Shown: in pieces, positions 4,528 through 12,452 of the stretch
Layout: every line of letters begins with the position of its first letter
Numbering within the stretch: the stretch's first letter is position 1
The notes under the pieces: generated by a model
Told to the model about the DNA's origin: nothing
Database searches by the model: none
Seen by the model: the letters and a program-made list of their open reading frames with translations, nothing else
IMG/VR virus record: IMGVR_UViG_3300044997_000599
Span: 1-31,464 of that record
Reading direction: 5' to 3' (one strand)
DNA: 31,464 bases
Source: a virus
Position numbers and translations under genes: made by a program

Positions 4528-5208
4528 TTAATTTTCTCCAAGAAAATAATATGGGTTCTCCACGGTTGCAAAGGTATAGATTGGCGCATACGTTCCGTTT
4601 TGTAAGTCCAATTTGTATACTTTGTCAGGCTGAGTTGATGATGAGTTTGTAAACTTTGTAGACGAAATATTCATTTCGTCATCAATAAACATAGGTGATA
4701 TTTTATTTCTGAATAAGTGTAAATCCCCACTAGCATAGTACAAGCAACTAAACGAGCCGTTAAGTTTTGATAAACTATGCCACCCATCTGTTAACAGTTC
4801 GGATAGCATGAGATTCGTATCCCACTTTACATTACCGTGCCGCTCTTGTAGTACTCTACAATAATCTGCTTTAATAATACCGTTATGCCATAGAGCATGT
4901 TCATACACATAGTGTGTGTTGTCTTTGCTAACTGTAAATGAATGGCAAAGGTTTGCAAGCGCTGGATGGATTGAATTAATATCAGACGTCTCTGTTGTAG
5001 GCGCCTGTAAATGAAAGATACCGTATGTTCTATGCGGTATGTCAATAAGTGAGTAGTCAATCTTACCCAGCTGTCTCTTTACAACAGTAAGCCTGTTAAT
5101 ATAGTAATCATACAAAGAAAACGAAAACGAATGACTCCCTCTATAGGAATTCAATTTAATCAGCTCTATGAGTTTATCTTTGCTGAACGACCCGACAATA
5201 GCGCACAT
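4528..5208 (-). CDS. Stand-alone class II glutamine amidotransferase (Ntn hydrolase)
   Basis: The protein begins MCAIVG, so Cys2 becomes the N-terminal nucleophile once Met is removed, as in GlmS, PurF and AsnB. Other glutaminase marks are SYRGSH (21-26), LWHNGII (oxyanion Asn109-Gly110), Asp130 in WDTNLMLSELL, and GSFSCLYY (151-158). The Arg that usually holds the glutamine carboxylate (HTRWAT in GlmS) is replaced in HLQAPT. At 226 residues it is only the ammonia-releasing domain; no synthetase domain is attached. One gene upstream lies queC, a PP-loop ATPase. Fused Gat-QueC proteins are known to make the archaeosine base G+ from preQ0, so this may be a split version. Alternatively it supplies ammonia to QueC for nitrile formation. 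Confidence 0.8.
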   Translation of the reverse strand: MCAIVGSFSKDKLIELIKLNSYRGSHSFSFSLYDYYINRLTVVKRQLGKIDYSLIDIPHRTYGIFHLQAPTTETSDINSIHPALANLCHSFTVSKDNTHYVYEHALWHNGIIKADYCRVLQERHGNVKWDTNLMLSELLTDGWHSLSKLNGSFSCLYYASGDLHLFRNKISPMFIDDEMNISSTKFTNSSSTQPDKVYKLDLQNGTYAPIYTFATVENPYYFLGEN

Positions 5209-5681
5209 TATAAAAGTTTCCTTAGCTCATTAATTGTGTTTGCAGCATTTATATGCAGGATACCAATACCATAGGGGTTTCTAAAAGGTTCTATACATTC
5301 TATACTATCATCGATTAACATGCTAGTGGGTGTAGCAAATTGTGACTTACCGGCTTTACTAAATGTAAAGTGCCTAGGCAAGTTTCCTAAATTATGTTTT
5401 TCTAGCCATTCGATCTTTTGCGAAGTTACTTCTGTATATGTTTCAAGTATACTCGCACAAGAAAGAATACTGATTTTTTTATTAGTGCTAAAAATAAAAT
5501 CAAGAAGCTCTTGTGCATCAGGCATCATCTCTAGATATGCGAAACCTCTATAATTTAGAACAAAGGTATTCCAATTCTTTTTTTTCTTATCATCTCGGCA
5601 ATTAACACCAAAAATAGACCTATAACTCTTATCGAAATCTGCAATAACACCATCCATATCTAAGTAAATATTTTCAACCAC
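5208..5681 (-). CDS. HAD-superfamily 5'(3')-deoxyribonucleotidase-like phosphatase
   Basis: A 157-residue HAD hydrolase. Motif I is DMDGV (Asp8 and Asp10: nucleophile and acid), motif II lies at ISILSCAS, and the C-terminal metal site is IDDS (about 121-124). The closest known type is the 5'(3')-deoxyribonucleotidase group, common in T4-like phages, which removes phosphate from nucleoside monophosphates. It starts at GTG, overlaps queC by 8 bases, and its stop overlaps the amidotransferase start (TAATG). Between two 7-deazaguanine-related genes it may trim a modified nucleotide or balance nucleotide pools; its substrate cannot be read from sequence. Confidence 0.8.
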   Translation of the reverse strand: MVENIYLDMDGVIADFDKSYRSIFGVNCRDDKKKKNWNTFVLNYRGFAYLEMMPDAQELLDFIFSTNKKISILSCASILETYTEVTSQKIEWLEKHNLGNLPRHFTFSKAGKSQFATPTSMLIDDSIECIEPFRNPYGIGILHINAANTINELRKLL

Positions 5682-6429
5682 CGATAAGTTTCTCCCAAGG
5701 AATATTAATTGAATAACTAACTGGATCCTTTAGTCCAGCCTTAGTAAAATTGGCAATTCGTTCAGCACATGAAGGACACCTCCCGCAGCTATTGCCGGCA
5801 GTGTCAGGATTATAACACGTTAGAGTACTTTCTAAGTAATTAACCATTTTCAGCTCTTTACAGATTTCAATTTCTTGATACTTGCTAAGATGGCTGAACG
5901 GCGCAACTACTTTAATCTTATGTGTTCTATTTTGCTCAGCAATGCTGTTGACCCCATCAACAAACCGTTGCGTTGTATCCCAATAGCCATACTCATCGTG
6001 TACTTGAAGCCCGGTAAAAACATAGGATGAGTTGGTTGCTTCAGCACATGCCAAGGTAAGAGATAGCAGAATTAAATTTCGAAATGGAACATATGTTACC
6101 GGTTGAGGGTCGCCCAGTACATCTTTGATGCTGGGCATATCTACGTCAGAGCCTTTAATATTCGCTGACATAGGTTTAGCAATTTTTCCTAGAATATCAA
6201 GATCAAAAATCTTATGTTCGACCCCTAGGCTTGAAGTAAGGTTTCTAGCACATTTTAATTCCATCCACTGCTTTTGACCGTAATCGTAAGATACCGCATA
6301 TACCTTATCTGCACCATATTTTTCAATCAAAAGCATTAGCATAACGGATGAGTCTAACCCTCCTGATAGCACCGCAACTACATTTTGTTTGGTAGTTGGA
6401 AGACTACTGATTGCCTCACTTAGTTTCAT
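5674..6429 (-). CDS. queC: 7-cyano-7-deazaguanine (preQ0) synthase QueC
   Basis: QueC uses two ATP and ammonia to turn 7-carboxy-7-deazaguanine into preQ0. The PP-loop SGGLDSS lies at residues 22-28 and the zinc-binding cysteines at about 205, 215, 218 and 221 (CYNPD...SCGRCPSC). Length is 251 residues, against about 231 in E. coli. The start at 6429 (MKLSEA) has an AGAAGGA site at normal distance and is preferred to an in-frame start nine codons upstream. It overlaps the small MazG-like gene by 14 bases and the HAD gene by 8. With FolE, QueD and QueE in the same operon, the complete preQ0 pathway is present. Confidence 0.96.
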   Translation of the reverse strand: MKLSEAISSLPTTKQNVVAVLSGGLDSSVMLMLLIEKYGADKVYAVSYDYGQKQWMELKCARNLTSSLGVEHKIFDLDILGKIAKPMSANIKGSDVDMPSIKDVLGDPQPVTYVPFRNLILLSLTLACAEATNSSYVFTGLQVHDEYGYWDTTQRFVDGVNSIAEQNRTHKIKVVAPFSHLSKYQEIEICKELKMVNYLESTLTCYNPDTAGNSCGRCPSCAERIANFTKAGLKDPVSYSINIPWEKLIGG

Positions 6430-6637
6430 TTCTTTCCTTCTGTATTCTGTGAACATATACTACAGCATCCATCATTTCTTGTTTTAGATGCAACAACCAT
6501 TGGTCTAGGTTTAAATCCTCTCGCTCGGTAGAAGTACCGTACTTCTTGAAACCAACTAACGATCTTACTATAAATTCGTCGCATATTTCGTTAACGTTCT
6601 TGTCTGGTGAACTTATTGTCTCATCGTCTTCTTGCAA
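6416..6637 (-). CDS. Small MazG-like helical protein, function unproven
   Basis: A 73-residue protein with the pattern EICDEFIVRS-GFKKYGT-RxDL-DQWLLHLKQEMMDAVVY. It resembles short phage proteins related to the all-alpha MazG/dUTPase-type NTP pyrophosphohydrolases, in which KQEMMDA would correspond to the metal-binding ExxxD helix. It may be only half of such a fold. The reading frame has no ATG start; TTG at 6637, inside the end of queF, is the likely one, which suggests translational coupling. A housekeeping role on nucleotide pools is an inference. Confidence 0.55.
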   Translation of the reverse strand: MQEDDETISSPDKNVNEICDEFIVRSLVGFKKYGTSTEREDLNLDQWLLHLKQEMMDAVVYVHRIQKERNETK

Positions 6638-7542
6638 AAATTAAATGCTCGCGAGATAGGATGAGCATAGTTGTTTACTACATCATAACTTGAGCCTCTG
6701 ATAGGATTAATGTCGATGCCACCGCGGCGAGTATACAAGCATACTACTAGCAACTCTTCCGGGGTTAAAAGGTCATAAAGTCGCTTATAGATACATTCAC
6801 ATATCTCTTCGTGAAAGTGGTTTTCCTTACGCATACTAACAATATACTGCAGGAGCGACTCAGGTGTTACAGCTTTATACCCTTTGATATGGATATAGAC
6901 ATCGCCCCAATCCGGCTGGTTAGTTACTCTACAATTAGAACGTAGCGAATGTGAACACCAACGCTCGTAGTGGCCAATACTAGGAACAACCTCTAGGATA
7001 TTTGCGCTTTCATTATATCGATCAAACAACATCATTTCTACATTGCAGTAGCTTTCAAGTGAGATAAAATCGCCTATAATTGGTGCTATTTCATCAACGT
7101 GTCCAAATGCAATATTAGCAAACACGTTGCCGCCTACTGCATCACCTAAATCCTTTGCAATCCTGTCCTCAATTTTCCATAGATCGTCAACGGATTTAAT
7201 CAAACGTGCCATATTGAATGAGTTCAAATACAGCTTTACTGATTTTGACTCAACAATATTAGGTGTGTCGCTTGAATAAACAAACTTAAGCCACCCTGAA
7301 ATTGGAAACCCGTTCTTAAGTAAAGTTGAAAATTCATATGCATTCCATGCGTCATAACCTTCGAAGGGAAGATTACCCTCATTAAGGTCGTAAGCAGTTC
7401 GATTTAACTGGCGTGGAACTGAAACCAACAAAGAAGAATCTACATCGTCTGGTGTAACATACGGCTTGACTACAGTACCGTCACCGGCTTTACCTAAGTG
7501 AACCGATACTAGTTCATTAAGCGTCTTTTGATAATCGCTCAT
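6613..7542 (-). CDS. queF: NADPH-dependent preQ0 reductase QueF (bimodular)
   Basis: QueF reduces the nitrile of preQ0 to the aminomethyl group of preQ1 with two NADPH. This 309-residue protein is the long, bimodular form as in E. coli (282). The ESKSVKLYLNSFN signature begins at about residue 98; the catalytic Cys204 and Asp211 lie in SNCRVTNQPDWG; His244 and Glu245 lie in HFHEEIC; YTRRGGIDINP closes the second half. All key residues are kept. The ATG at 7542 matches the N-terminus of E. coli QueF and starts 8 bases after the kinase stop codon; an ATG six codons upstream lacks a ribosome site. QueF implies that the end product is a preQ1 derivative, not just preQ0. Confidence 0.96.
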   Translation of the reverse strand: MSDYQKTLNELVSVHLGKAGDGTVVKPYVTPDDVDSSLLVSVPRQLNRTAYDLNEGNLPFEGYDAWNAYEFSTLLKNGFPISGWLKFVYSSDTPNIVESKSVKLYLNSFNMARLIKSVDDLWKIEDRIAKDLGDAVGGNVFANIAFGHVDEIAPIIGDFISLESYCNVEMMLFDRYNESANILEVVPSIGHYERWCSHSLRSNCRVTNQPDWGDVYIHIKGYKAVTPESLLQYIVSMRKENHFHEEICECIYKRLYDLLTPEELLVVCLYTRRGGIDINPIRGSSYDVVNNYAHPISRAFNFCKKTMRQ

Positions 7543-7549
7543 AGGATTA

Positions 7550-8089
7550 CTACTCTTCATAATTAAAAATAATATTAACCACCTTTTCTACTCGTTCACG
7601 AACAGACCCGCTAATCTTAACTACGTTAACGTTTTCATCTACTATAACTGAATCAAAAAGATTTACGATTCTGTTTCTAAAGTGAACACCCACTGATCTA
7701 ACCCCGTCCTCTTCGAGCTCAAACTCTGGTGCAATATAAAACAGCACATCATACTTCTTTATTAGTTTGTTAAATACCTCTCTTGCATAGTTAAGAGTCT
7801 GACGTTTGATATTGCCTGTTTCGAGCAGATAGATTGAATAAACATAGCCATCCAATACAGTTCTATCTGTAAGCATTTTGCTGTTCATAAACCAGTTAAC
7901 AATATGTTGATTCATTATCAAAGTTTGAGTAATATCATTACCATCTTCGTTAATTGGCAGACCATAAGAAGCAACCGTCCTTGTTACTTCTGTACAAATA
8001 TTATATCTCTTAAACATATCTTCTGATCTCAACGCATTTAAAAGAGTAGTCTTACCTGTGCATTGCGCACCACTTATACCAATTCGCAT
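7550..8089 (-). CDS. P-loop nucleoside/nucleotide kinase-like ATPase
   Basis: A 179-residue P-loop NTPase with Walker A GAQCTGKTT (about residues 7-15), TEVTR near 33-37, and DRTVLDGYVYS (about 76-86), resembling the NadR kinase domain and the AAA_28 family of small-molecule kinases. The DRTxLDG box is where such kinases place the phosphate-acceptor base. It overlaps the formyltransferase gene by 16 bases and precedes queF by 7. Candidate substrates are a nucleoside or nucleotide of guanine or of a 7-deazaguanine; the family assignment is good and the substrate unknown. Confidence 0.75.
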   Translation of the reverse strand: MRIGISGAQCTGKTTLLNALRSEDMFKRYNICTEVTRTVASYGLPINEDGNDITQTLIMNQHIVNWFMNSKMLTDRTVLDGYVYSIYLLETGNIKRQTLNYAREVFNKLIKKYDVLFYIAPEFELEEDGVRSVGVHFRNRIVNLFDSVIVDENVNVVKISGSVRERVEKVVNIIFNYEE

Positions 8090-8622
8090 CCGAATTTTTC
8101 CTTAAAAAACAACAGCCATGAGTGTAGAGAAGTAAGCTTAAGAGTGTCATATACTTCTTCTTTAGTATTACACGAATTAAAAACGGCAAACTTTGTGATT
8201 ATTTCTCCGCTGTCAACTTCAGGCGCTACCTTATGTACTACACTACCTATATGCTTGTATAGAGCTAAATTCTTTGCAACTGCTTCTTGAGGATCTTTAC
8301 CCCTCAGCTCCGGATAATTTGTAATAAGGCCTGGATGCCCATTATATAACTCGAACTTTTTTACCACCGCTTGAGGAATGATTCTTAGATAACCATGGAG
8401 AGTAATAAAATAGTTACTGTCATCAAGCTGCATGAAATAATCCATCAGTTTATCATGCGAGTCTGCGATAATAGCGCATTCGTAAATATATGGATGCCAA
8501 GTTTCAGTGTCGGTATTATTAGTCAGAACTAAATCTGGCTTAAAACCAAGCCTTGTAGCAATAGCAGCAATCTCAGATCCTGTCTGAGAGAACATAGCAA
8601 TCCAGTATTTACGATTAACCAT
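8074..8622 (-). CDS. dpdN: Formyltransferase, candidate dPreQ1 formyltransferase (DpdN-like)
   Basis: This is the 10-formyltetrahydrofolate-dependent formyltransferase fold (PurN/Fmt type). The catalytic triad is visible as Asn94 and His96 in NGHPGLI and Asp137 in EVDSGEII. GSVVHKVAPEVDSG matches the conserved loop near the active site. Length is 182 residues, close to PurN and lacking the C-terminal domain of Met-tRNA formyltransferase. It lies between dpdA and queF, overlapping dpdA by 8 bases. Formylated preQ1 has been reported in phage DNA, with a formyltransferase named DpdN predicted for it, and this gene fits that role. GAR or sugar formylation are alternatives; the family is sure, the substrate inferred. 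Confidence 0.75.
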   Translation of the reverse strand: MVNRKYWIAMFSQTGSEIAAIATRLGFKPDLVLTNNTDTETWHPYIYECAIIADSHDKLMDYFMQLDDSNYFITLHGYLRIIPQAVVKKFELYNGHPGLITNYPELRGKDPQEAVAKNLALYKHIGSVVHKVAPEVDSGEIITKFAVFNSCNTKEEVYDTLKLTSLHSWLLFFKEKFGCELV

Positions 8623-9403
8623 TAACTATTGCTCTAAAACATTCAATATTATAAAAAATCTTACCGAGCTGATCTTCGTTTAAGTCGCTATTAACAAGGG
8701 TAAAGAGCTTTTCAGATGGTTTGTCTTCTAGACCCTTGGTACCATTATAGCGGATACCCTTCAAGCCAGTAACCACTGGGTTAGATGTATCAAGGGAATC
8801 AACCCATTTGTAGTCGCGGTACGATTCAAATTCTTGCGGGAGACCACATCCTAACAGATGATGAGGTTTATTTACATTAATTACTTGTGCAATGTTAAGC
8901 ATGTAATTAAGAAGAGCATCACGGCCGTACATATAGTGATGGTACTTAGTTGGAAGCTTACCATTAAGATCTTCGTCGATAAAAAATGAATAGTCAAACG
9001 AAATAGCAACCTTATCTACTAAAGGTTCAATCACTTGATAACACCAGACTATCTCTTCGATAGATTTACCTTGCACCACACCGATAGTTTTTCTTTCAGG
9101 GATATGCTGCCATGTCTTTATATTATTTACAGTTTTCTCAGCGTCTTCAAGAACATCAGGAATAATATAATAAGTAGGGCGAAGAAGAGTAATCCACTTA
9201 TAATATTCATCATTATTAAAGGCAGTCCCTAATTCAAAGACTGAATTGTCGAGAATAACTTCTCGACCTTTTTCCAGTGCACGCCTGAAGAAATTATAAT
9301 ACTTTTCGTTCTCTTCAAATAAGTGGACAAGAGCATAGTCGTAGTCAGTAACTTCCTGCACTTTATTTAAAATACTCAGAGGGGCTTCATGGGCTATTTT
9401 CAT
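8615..9403 (-). CDS. dpdA: DpdA-type DNA guanine transglycosylase (TGT fold)
   Basis: A 262-residue relative of tRNA-guanine transglycosylase. Marks of the TGT/DpdA fold, in order, are ILDNSVFELG with Asp52, IIPDVL (81-85), GVVQGKSIEE (from 108), HLLGCGLP (182-189) and SLDTSNP with Asp205. These match the TGT GxVQG and HLLGxG loops and two acidic catalytic positions. It lacks the usual zinc-binding C-terminal domain of tRNA TGTs and is smaller than Tgt (about 375), as expected for phage DpdA. It would exchange guanine in DNA for a 7-deazaguanine made by the neighbouring genes. It is the first gene after the only notable gap in the operon. Confidence 0.85.
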   Translation of the reverse strand: MKIAHEAPLSILNKVQEVTDYDYALVHLFEENEKYYNFFRRALEKGREVILDNSVFELGTAFNNDEYYKWITLLRPTYYIIPDVLEDAEKTVNNIKTWQHIPERKTIGVVQGKSIEEIVWCYQVIEPLVDKVAISFDYSFFIDEDLNGKLPTKYHHYMYGRDALLNYMLNIAQVINVNKPHHLLGCGLPQEFESYRDYKWVDSLDTSNPVVTGLKGIRYNGTKGLEDKPSEKLFTLVNSDLNEDQLGKIFYNIECFRAIVNG

Positions 9404-9459: not shown

Positions 9460-10140
9460 TCAACGAGTTGTTAGTTCCTGAATCTGAATATTATCAAAGA
9501 ACTCTTTCTTTACATCAGCATTATTAAACTCGCCATACAATACTGTGGTTTGCGTAGTGCTGTCATGAGCATTTAAACCTCTATTTTGACAACACCCATG
9601 CTTTAACTTTAAGTATACTGCTACATTTTGACTTTCAGTTGCTTTTCGAATTTCCCGTGCAATATCGTTACAGAGTTCTTCTTGAAGAGTTCCTCTGCGC
9701 GCGCACCATTGAGCAATGCGAGTATACTTTGATAGTCCAATTACTTTATCTCCTGGGATAATACCGATATACCCAACACCCGTAACAGGCTGGTGATGAT
9801 GCGAACATATAGACTTAAGTTCACTTCTCACTACGAGCATACCATTATATGCACTTTCGCCCGTGTTAGGGAATGCAGCAGTGTCGGGTGCTGGATAATA
9901 TCTACCTGCCATTATCTCATGCACATACATTTTAGCTAGTCTTTTGGCTGTTCCTTTTGAGTTTGGATCGTTTTCTCTGTCAATAAGAAGAGCATCCAAG
10001 ACTGCTTCAAACGCCTCTGTAACCTCTTCAACAATAACTGTGCGATCTGCATCGTTGAGAATTGTGGAAATATTATCACCTGCCCAGTACCTCATTTTGT
10101 TATTAATAAGTATGTTACGCAAGACTTCCGTATATTTCAT
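9460..10140 (-). CDS. folE: GTP cyclohydrolase I FolE
   Basis: FolE opens GTP to dihydroneopterin triphosphate, the first step of both preQ0 and folate synthesis. The zinc and catalytic cluster CSHHH begins at about residue 112, followed by GYIGIIPGDKVIGLSKYTRI; the second zinc Cys is in KHGCCQNRG (about 183). Length with the ATG at 10140 is 226 residues, close to E. coli (222). That start lies one base after the queD stop; an ATG five codons upstream is also possible, and a TTG further up is unlikely. The phage thus starts the pathway from GTP itself and does not depend on host FolE. Confidence 0.95.
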   Translation of the reverse strand: MKYTEVLRNILINNKMRYWAGDNISTILNDADRTVIVEEVTEAFEAVLDALLIDRENDPNSKGTAKRLAKMYVHEIMAGRYYPAPDTAAFPNTGESAYNGMLVVRSELKSICSHHHQPVTGVGYIGIIPGDKVIGLSKYTRIAQWCARRGTLQEELCNDIAREIRKATESQNVAVYLKLKHGCCQNRGLNAHDSTTQTTVLYGEFNNADVKKEFFDNIQIQELTTR

Positions 10141-10141
10141 A

Positions 10142-10612
10142 TTATGTTCTTTCATAAATTGCTGAATTGCCAGCGTGTTCAAATACTTCCACTGACTTAA
10201 CGCGCACAGAGGGGTTCAACAATGTCCCCCTATCTCTCCATTCATCAAGAAGAAATGCAAGTTGGTTGTAAGCAAGCTCTGCAAATCTTTCACAGCCAAC
10301 AGACGGAACCACTCTTACGTCAGCGAGACCAAGTCTACCTAGATTGGCTAGAGATTCTAGTTCCGGATCATCCTCTGCAACAATAAGTGTGTGGTCAAAC
10401 ATATACTCTAGCCATTCTTTTAATTCTTTCAGGCCCCCGAAATCCATAACCCAATTACGCTCATCGAGGGCATCACATTCGAATACGGCTTTTACACCAA
10501 TAGAATAACCATGAAGAAGAGAGCAATGGCTATGGGTGCTTCTCCATTGTCTAAAGCAGCAGCTCAACCCTCTATCATTACCGTACGTTTTTGTACTATA
10601 AAACTTCCCCAT
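10142..10612 (-). CDS. queD: 6-carboxytetrahydropterin synthase QueD
   Basis: QueD converts dihydroneopterin triphosphate to 6-carboxytetrahydropterin. The catalytic Cys30 and zinc His34 lie in HSHCSLLHGYS, with another ligand His at 27 or 29; FDHT (72-75) and VGCERFAE supply the Asp-His and Glu of the active site. In E. coli QueD the third zinc ligand is the second His of LHGHS; here it is Tyr (LHGYS). I believe this variant recurs in a subfamily that shares the CFRQWR-type start, but I could not check. The ATG at 10612 overlaps the upstream stop as TGATG and has GGGAGG just before it, so I prefer it to upstream in-frame GTG and ATG codons. Confidence 0.93.
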   Translation of the reverse strand: MGKFYSTKTYGNDRGLSCCFRQWRSTHSHCSLLHGYSIGVKAVFECDALDERNWVMDFGGLKELKEWLEYMFDHTLIVAEDDPELESLANLGRLGLADVRVVPSVGCERFAELAYNQLAFLLDEWRDRGTLLNPSVRVKSVEVFEHAGNSAIYERT

Positions 10613-11046
10613 CATACCTCCCACCAGAACTCAAACCACTCAGATGTTCTTGATCGTTCAATCTCGAATGCATAGTATTCTGGTACAACTTCCTGTTCTT
10701 TATTCCAGATAAGAACTGCTACGTCCGTCTTACCATGAATATTCATAAATGAGCTAATAGTTTTACCTGAATCTAATATCTCATCTACAAGTAGAACTTT
10801 ATTACGAGGATTATCAAGAATATCCATAAGAGTAAGCGATGGCTTCTTTCTATCTGTAGCCCAGTTACTTGCTAGCATCGGCACATCAAGCTTATGACTT
10901 AGCACCGTGGCAGGGATTAGCCCGCCGCGAGTAAGTCCTATAATATAATTATATCTTACATTACGCTCTTTAATTTGATATAATATAATGTCGATAGCTT
11001 CTTTAAATCTATCAAACGTAATCGATGTTTTTTTTACGTTCCCCAT
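10612..11046 (-). CDS. Gpt-like purine phosphoribosyltransferase
   Basis: A type I phosphoribosyltransferase of 144 residues. The PRPP loop VLLVDEILDSGKT lies at 84-96 and the upstream YIIGLTRGGLIP (34-45) matches the flexible-loop region of xanthine-guanine phosphoribosyltransferase. The C-terminal WFEFWWE resembles the purine-contacting tryptophan segment of E. coli Gpt (152 residues). The ATG at 11046 with GGAG 7 bases before it is favoured over a TTG four codons upstream. It would join guanine, xanthine or hypoxanthine to PRPP. Since DpdA releases free guanine, a guanine-salvage role in this operon makes sense (inference). Confidence 0.85.
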   Translation of the reverse strand: MGNVKKTSITFDRFKEAIDIILYQIKERNVRYNYIIGLTRGGLIPATVLSHKLDVPMLASNWATDRKKPSLTLMDILDNPRNKVLLVDEILDSGKTISSFMNIHGKTDVAVLIWNKEQEVVPEYYAFEIERSRTSEWFEFWWEV

Positions 11047-11891
11047 GCATTTCTCCAAATATCAACTTGCAGACGCGGAGAGTATCTCCATCCTTTTTTC
11101 ATAGCATGCTCCGCTACTCTTTTGTTATTAAGGGTATAAACTTCATTTGTACCCCCGACTGGCATTAGATAAACTTCGCCACTAAAGCCCCCTTCTCTAA
11201 ATTCTTTTACTGCATGCTCCACGTCAGCAAAATCATCTTCTGTTGCAACTACAAACTTAAGATATGTATTTCCGATACTTTGATATTGATTTACAATATC
11301 AGGCTTAATAGCATCTTCCCATTTCTCCCCTGAACAAGGCAATTTGGATGAAACCGAGAAGGTTAGCCGGTCATAGTCTTTACCAAACCGAGTAAATTCT
11401 TCAAAAAGAAAACTTTCTAAATCTTCAGAAATAGGTTGTGTGCCGTTCGTTTCAAAGGTCAGATCAGCTAATTGATGCCAGAAATCTTTGTGTTTAAGAA
11501 GATCAGGGTAAGCACGTTGCCATCCAAGAAGTGGTTCGCCTCCTGTAATTACAAGATGCTCGGATTTCCATTTGTTTTCTGGAAGAAGTTCAAGAATCTT
11601 CTCAGCAATTTCATCAGTAGTTCGTATAGGACTAAGATGCTTAAAGCGAGGATCCCAACTAGCATAAGAGTCACATCCAGTATGAACAAGAGGAAGCTCT
11701 GCGTAGCTGTTGTACAGAGAAATTTGATTAGCGACATTGTCTCGCTCATTACTAAGTTGTCCTACGGGCATGCCAAAGCCAGCACATTGAAAATTACAAC
11801 CGAAAGTTCTTAAAAAAATAGAAGGAGCTCCGACATAGAGACCTTCCCCTTGCAAGCTATAAAATAGCTCGGATACTTTAATTTTTGACAT
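11034..11891 (-). CDS. queE: 7-carboxy-7-deazaguanine synthase QueE (radical SAM)
   Basis: QueE uses S-adenosylmethionine and a 4Fe-4S cluster to convert 6-carboxytetrahydropterin to 7-carboxy-7-deazaguanine. Residues 8-32 (LFYSLQGEG...FLRTFGC) are the family N-terminus. Cluster cysteines are Cys32 and Cys36, but the usual third Cys two residues later is missing; Cys73 in TGCDSYASW probably takes its place, after an insertion of about 34 residues. The SAM-binding ITGGEP motif is at about 115-120 and FETNGTQ follows. The start has AGGA about 6 bases before it. It precedes the phosphoribosyltransferase gene with overlap. Confidence 0.93.
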   Translation of the reverse strand: MSKIKVSELFYSLQGEGLYVGAPSIFLRTFGCNFQCAGFGMPVGQLSNERDNVANQISLYNSYAELPLVHTGCDSYASWDPRFKHLSPIRTTDEIAEKILELLPENKWKSEHLVITGGEPLLGWQRAYPDLLKHKDFWHQLADLTFETNGTQPISEDLESFLFEEFTRFGKDYDRLTFSVSSKLPCSGEKWEDAIKPDIVNQYQSIGNTYLKFVVATEDDFADVEHAVKEFREGGFSGEVYLMPVGGTNEVYTLNNKRVAEHAMKKGWRYSPRLQVDIWRNAWGT

Positions 11892-11939: not shown

Positions 11940-12452
11940 TTAAACCTGCTTGGCACGCTTTATTTTACGTTCCAATACTTTTTTCTGATTTAAGCTTCTG
12001 GCCAGATGAATTGGATTAGCCCTCTTAGTATAGTCTACCCCATTTAAATGATCAAGCTCATGAAGAATACATCTTGCAGTCATTCCAATAAATTTCTCTG
12101 TATGATACTCACCAAACGCATCTTGAAATCTAACCTTAACTATTGATGGTCTTTTGATAGGCAGAAATAAATTCGGGTATGTAAGACAACCCTCTTCTAG
12201 TTTAATCTTATCAGTTGTAACATCCGCTATAACTGGATTAAAAAATGCTAAAGGATTTTCCGAATGAAGAACAAACACTCTGTACGGTAAGCCGCATTGA
12301 TTAGCAGAAAGTCCTATTCCCTTATAATGCAACATTGTTTCTATAAGATTATTAGCTAATTCTACTGGGTCGATAGGAGGGGCTTTAAAGTCAAATCTCT
12401 CTAATTTAGTAGAGAGAAGAGGATGAGAAGGCTTTACCAGTCCGTAACTCAT
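11940..12452 (-). CDS. def: Peptide deformylase
   Basis: Peptide deformylase removes the formyl group from N-terminal Met of new proteins. All three motifs are present: GIGLSANQ (45-52), EGCL with metal ligand Cys89, and HELDH (131-135) with two metal-binding His and the catalytic Glu. At 170 residues it is full length for bacterial Def. Phage-borne deformylases are known in marine myophages. It is the first gene after a strong promoter, 48 bases before queE. It probably serves phage protein maturation; a link to the formyltransferase downstream is only a thought. Confidence 0.95.
   Translation of the reverse strand: MSYGLVKPSHPLLSTKLERFDFKAPPIDPVELANNLIETMLHYKGIGLSANQCGLPYRVFVLHSENPLAFFNPVIADVTTDKIKLEEGCLTYPNLFLPIKRPSIVKVRFQDAFGEYHTEKFIGMTARCILHELDHLNGVDYTKRANPIHLARSLNQKKVLERKIKRAKQV

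Follow-up and report, generated by a model that had tools for sequence, protein, structure and literature searches.

A viral formyltransferase gene linked to dpdA and queF as a candidate for the formylation of preQ1

A formyltransferase (FT) encoded between the DNA-guanine transglycosylase DpdA and the nitrile reductase QueF of a viral genome is predicted, with a probability of about 85%, to formylate the aminomethyl group of preQ1, the phage DNA then carrying formyl-dPreQ1. The DNA analysed, hereafter the window, is a whole and complete IMG/VR virus record of 31,464 bases. Formyl-preQ1 had been proposed as the end product in an earlier note on this DNA, and the proposal is supported by the fold of FT and its catalytic triad, by the loss of the positions that contact GAR in PurN, by the occurrence of FT, in loci with enough flank, only together with DpdA and QueF, by the complete reductase motif of QueF and by the absence of FT from phages in which plain dPreQ1 has been measured. 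From this evidence we infer the substrate, the donor, the product and the order of formylation and insertion. Formyl-dPreQ1 and a predicted enzyme, DpdN, have reportedly been published. The present analysis adds how large the family is, which residues mark its active site, and that a GNAT acetyltransferase can take its place; an enzyme so far predicted and represented by one isolate now has hundreds of relatives in uncultured phages.

The operon and its formyltransferase

The genes concerned form a long run on the minus strand that begins, read 5′ to 3′, with peptide deformylase, QueE, a phosphoribosyltransferase, QueD, FolE and DpdA, and continues with FT, a kinase, QueF, a 73-aa ORF, QueC, a nucleotidase-like gene and a glutamine-amidotransferase-like gene (GAT) (Table 1). 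The remaining genes of the window are of the T4-like tailed phage type (portal, major head protein, tail sheath, terminase, clamp, clamp loader and an SbcCD-like nuclease). Inside the operon, the nucleotidase-like gene and the 73-aa ORF have PHROG matches of unknown function. The phosphoribosyltransferase, whose top NCBIfam match is a xanthine phosphoribosyltransferase (E 1.8e-12, under the cut-off), perhaps salvages the guanine that DpdA releases; Flavobacterium phage immuto also has a phosphoribosyltransferase gene. GAT resembles class II glutamine amidotransferases, has no Pfam match and probably supplies ammonia to QueC; it follows QueC in 49 of 73 loci and likewise in Vibrio T4-like phages, including 6E35.1a.

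Table 1. Operon genes of the window, and acetyltransferase genes found in the FT position of other viral contigs
Feature	Position	Strand	Remarks
GAT, glutamine-amidotransferase-like	4528-5208	-	phrog_12378; Cys2 + HNGII in sequence
5′-3′ deoxyribonucleotidase-like gene	5208-5681	-	in operon
QueC, preQ0 synthase	5674-6456	-	TIGR00364, 159.1 bits (cut-off 150.3)
73-aa ORF	6416-6637	-	in operon
QueF, preQ0-to-preQ1 nitrile reductase, two-domain type	6613-7560	-	315 aa; PF14819 + PF14489
P-loop nucleoside/nucleotide kinase (AAA_28)	7550-8089	-	179 aa; PF13521, E 2e-16
FT, formyltransferase (DpdN candidate)	8074-8622	-	182 aa; Asn94, His96, Asp137; Glu17, Ser165
dpdA stop / FT start overlap	8615-8622	-	8 bases, ATGGTTAA
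DpdA, DNA-guanine transglycosylase	8615-9403	-	262 aa; identity to immuto DpdA, TGT-like motifs
FolE, GTP cyclohydrolase I	9460-10182	-	PF01227, E 1.2e-37
QueD	10142-10624	-	PF01242, E 1.1e-16
Purine phosphoribosyltransferase	10612-11058	-	PF00156, E 3.9e-10
QueE, radical SAM 7-carboxy-7-deazaguanine synthase	11034-11891	-	TIGR03365, E 2.5e-14, under cut-off; Radical_SAM
Peptide deformylase	11940-12452	-	upstream of QueE
GNAT, contig L183	10804-11346		between DpdA and kinase
GNAT, contig L213	10801-11343		between DpdA and kinase
GNAT, contig L222	10801-11379		between DpdA and kinase
GNAT, contig L317	617-1159		between DpdA and kinase

Pfam and NCBIfam searches of the window DpdA returned no match. 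Along its entire length the protein shares 51% identity with the product annotated DpdA in immuto; it is about 39-40% identical to the DpdA of Campylobacter group II phages, and its motifs VVQG, HLLGCG and SLDTSNP are conserved with Campylobacter phage CP220. The CP220 protein, to which the window DpdA is about 40% identical, is one that we take to be a member of the DpdA3 subfamily described, reportedly, by Cui et al. 2023 and said to replace G completely. QueF carries ESKSVKLY at residues 104-111, in agreement with the NADPH motif E(S/L)K(S/A)hK(L/Y)(Y/F/W), and the catalytic residues Cys210 and Asp217, plus His250 and Glu251; among 113 relatives these four residues are invariant or nearly so and ESKSxKLY is kept by essentially all. 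Its TIGR03138 score, 224 bits, is under the cut-off of 293. The model of the kinase matches best the NadR ribosylnicotinamide-kinase domain (Z 18.9), with dCK/TMK next. Whether or not QueF is present, this gene remains beside DpdA, as in CP220; its role is hard to account for if the base is exchanged after replication.

The FT gene starts with ATG, has no internal stops and matches Formyl_trans_N (PF00551, E 4e-8, over the gathering score). Its start codon is interleaved with the stop codon of dpdA, and at its other end it shares 16 bases with the kinase gene. Asn94, His96 and Asp137 are unchanged in 117 of 117 full-length FT relatives; the catalytic residues of E. coli PurN are His108 and Asp144 (PMC3261824). 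The AlphaFold (AF2) model of FT (mean pLDDT 95.9) has PurN proteins as its closest solved folds, 3p9x with Foldseek (E 3.4e-11) and 3av3 with VIA-align (Z 19.8, rmsd 2.3 over 170 residues), and PurN structures also rank first for a profile built from 72 FT relatives. The earlier claims of an intact Asn-His-Asp formyltransferase, of its 8-base overlap with dpdA and of a queF two genes on, behind the kinase, were all borne out.

The likeness to PurN, and the annotation of the immuto homologue gp204 as PurN, would also fit an auxiliary GAR formyltransferase that raises purine synthesis, as the annotated purN-like genes of cyanophages might. FT does share the fold and the triad of PurN, but its score of 33.7 bits lies far below the PurN equivalog cut-off (TIGR00639, 150.1 bits) and two GAR-contact positions are altered. 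In GAR-bound structures of PurN, the phosphate is next to Asn13 and the ribose next to Glu173. In alignments of the FT family the PurN loop G-S-N is G-S-E, with Glu17 at the position of Asn13 in 72 of 72 sequences, and Ser165 is found at the position of Glu173 in 69 of 72. We infer that a site with glutamate where PurN has a phosphate ligand would accommodate a guanine-like base more readily than the phosphate of a nucleotide. Judged from its sequence, FT is not PurN, because of both the low score and the changed contact positions; it also lies beside DpdA and QueF in every locus with enough flank, and a role in purine synthesis is highly improbable. The fold is common, too, to sugar N-formyltransferases and methionyl-tRNA formyltransferase (FMT), so that the acceptor of FT might instead be, for example, a sugar, peptide or Met-tRNA, and its place in the operon a matter of chance. 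Such an acceptor is scarcely credible for a single compact domain of 182 residues from which the C-terminal tRNA-binding domain of the FMT type is absent, and for a family whose linkage to DpdA and QueF extends to members only 31-40% identical to the window FT.

Linkage to DpdA and QueF

The search of viral contigs with FT as the sole bait yielded 263 relatives. Among the best 80 of these 263 loci, DpdA was present in 71 of 71 and QueF in 69 of 69 with enough flank. Loci from the FT bait and from three DpdA baits were then pooled; duplicates were discarded and a minimum of 4 kb downstream of DpdA was required. Both FT and QueF were present in 112, FT without QueF in none, QueF without FT in 30, and neither in 10. 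FT is an optional step, because the 30 DpdA-QueF loci do without it. The association between FT and QueF in the raw pooled table has a Fisher p of 6e-7, a value that ignores kinship. Each of the two genes shows only 4-5 changes along the DpdA tree, and related loci are not independent because FT changes only about five times; a kinship-aware test of the association, with three usable independent pairs, was not significant (median p 0.5), the sign test being without power. In view of the few independent changes, the Fisher p was set aside as statistical proof. The link between FT and QueF is thus strong by linkage, yet few independent events stand behind it.

The genes also stay together in contigs where their order has been rearranged (QueF-FT-kinase-DpdA in L056, DpdA-kinase-QueF-FT in L057 and FT-kinase-DpdA-QueF in L069). 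The use of QueF as bait gave 63 loci with FT, 3 with GNAT, 5 with neither and 9 too short to judge; DpdA was missing from the stretch fetched in 16 of the 63. Peptide deformylase was present in 25 of 67 FT-positive loci and in 0 of 24 FT-negative loci with enough flank, a skew that lineage may explain.

Among 50,697 isolate phage records, full-length FT was found in immuto phages only. A scan of 84,980 genomes for a cellular source of FT returned only three contigs, every one in metagenome assemblies, and DpdA was also present on two of them. The third, from a Microcoleus metagenome assembly (L312), has FT alone in 20 kb, with DpdA and QueF not recognised, and is the sole long-flank case of an FT relative without these two genes.

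Predicted product and a possible exchange of the acyl cap

In the proposed pathway, GTP would be converted to preQ0 via FolE, QueD, QueE and QueC (with the glutamine amidotransferase), and QueF would reduce preQ0 to preQ1, the side chain of which is a primary aminomethyl group. FT would move a formyl group onto this amine from 10-formyl-tetrahydrofolate, the donor expected from the family, and DpdA would swap guanine in DNA for the 7-deazaguanine base, to give 2′-deoxy-7-(formylamino)methyl-7-deazaguanine (formyl-dPreQ1). A transfer of the PurN type would be chemically natural, because preQ1 and the glycyl end of GAR both present H2N-CH2-. The formyl cap would take away the positive charge that preQ1 brings to the DNA, with possible consequences for packing and nuclease evasion.

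The final product would be the same if FT acted on preQ1 already in DNA, with DpdA inserting the base and FT formylating it later. This order has a substantial chance, though one short of even. The direct coupling of dpdA to FT through the overlap counts for it, as does the name dPreQ1 formyltransferase, reportedly given to DpdN by Cui et al. 2023, which implies a DNA substrate. Two observations point the other way, neither of them decisive: FT is one compact domain with no nucleic-acid-binding part in its AF2 model, and where the genes are separated it goes with QueF and not with DpdA, as in L218, L229 and L233, in which FT-kinase-QueF lies about 6-7 kb away from DpdA. Because of the missing domain, and because FT, kinase and QueF stay together where DpdA has moved, the free base is slightly favoured as acceptor. 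Charge was dropped as a guide to the acceptor, since DpdA, which must act on DNA, itself has a median pI of 5.2, lower than that of FT (6.2).

The GAT gene near QueC raises a different end product, dG+ (archaeosine) or plain dPreQ1, with GAT and QueC, or a QueF of QueF-L-like type, as the final step and FT dispensable; archaeal Gat-QueC and QueF-L produce G+ (PMC6884629). The window QueF, however, has the reductase motif, and FT is intact with invariant catalytic positions. In Vibrio phage 6E351A, 15% of dG is a nucleoside whose mass of 295 Da fits dPreQ1 (PMC12028318), and the record 6E35.1a, taken as the same phage, has the same QueF-QueC-GAT arrangement; FT was not found in this record. It follows from this comparison that a QueF of such kind yields preQ1, that GAT is not a sign of archaeosine and that another gene is needed for formylation. 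An end product that leaves FT without a part is accordingly unlikely. DpdA, DpdA2 and dPreQ1 have been described previously, and plain dPreQ1 was measured in the DNA of phages Dp-1 and HVTV-1 (PMC6884629). FT was sought in both and was absent, with immuto as the positive control in the same search, which further supports formyl-dPreQ1 as the product in the window phage.

In four viral contigs (L183, L213, L222 and L317) a GNAT acetyltransferase is found instead of FT, in the order DpdA-GNAT-kinase-QueF. The GNAT gene starts at the dpdA stop, as FT does, and PF00583 was over the gathering score in both of two genes tested. A scan for relatives returned exactly these four contigs, each with DpdA, kinase and QueF and none with FT, so that GNAT and FT never occur together; no relative was found in isolate phages. 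Gene position and family by themselves suggest N-acetyl-dPreQ1, so far unreported, in the DNA of these viruses. If real, the variant would mean that phages have more than one acyl cap to choose from for the same base amine, a new diversity of DNA modification. The place after dpdA can tentatively be viewed, at somewhat less than even odds, as an exchangeable acyl-capping slot, in which FT, present in most of these phages, would give formyl-preQ1 and GNAT would give N-acetyl-dPreQ1, while about 40 other loci may make plain dPreQ1; phages would then differ in how the same amine is capped, perhaps evading form-specific nucleases. In the roughly 40 loci with neither FT nor GNAT, no conserved candidate for a tailoring enzyme was found within 8 kb, and the neighbours widely common to them lie on the opposite strand and look like virion genes.

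Comparison with known systems

The DpdA of the Campylobacter group II phage CP220 is about 40% identical to that of the window and adjoins the same kinase; in contrast, QueF and FT were not found in a search of the whole CP220 genome, and the DNA of Campylobacter phages of this group is reported to be highly modified with dADG (PMC6884629). Vibrio 6E35.1a shares a QueF about 43% identical to the window QueF, followed by QueC and GAT, and differs in having another, longer transglycosylase, annotated TGT-like, and plain dPreQ1 DNA without FT (PMC12028318). The closest arrangement is that of phage immuto (vB_FspM_immuto_2-6A, NC_055915), which has DpdA, FT, kinase and QueF in the same run as the window; its gp204 is about 40% identical to the window FT, and a small additional ORF separates it from DpdA.

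Immuto presumably comes from a group among the co-authors of Cui et al. 2023 (NAR 51:9214), the study that reportedly found formyl-dPreQ1 (fdPreQ1) in phage DNA and predicted DpdN as a dPreQ1 formyltransferase. Within the literature searched, no use of fdPreQ1 or DpdN as names for an enzyme of the FT type was found. Like DpdN, the window FT has the Formyl_trans_N fold with an Asn-His-Asp triad, is encoded with DpdA and a preQ1 pathway that includes QueF, and has formyl-dPreQ1 as its predicted product; it is a candidate DpdN. The signature of its family, with Glu17 invariant, Ser165 near-invariant and strict linkage to QueF, makes the substrate directly testable.
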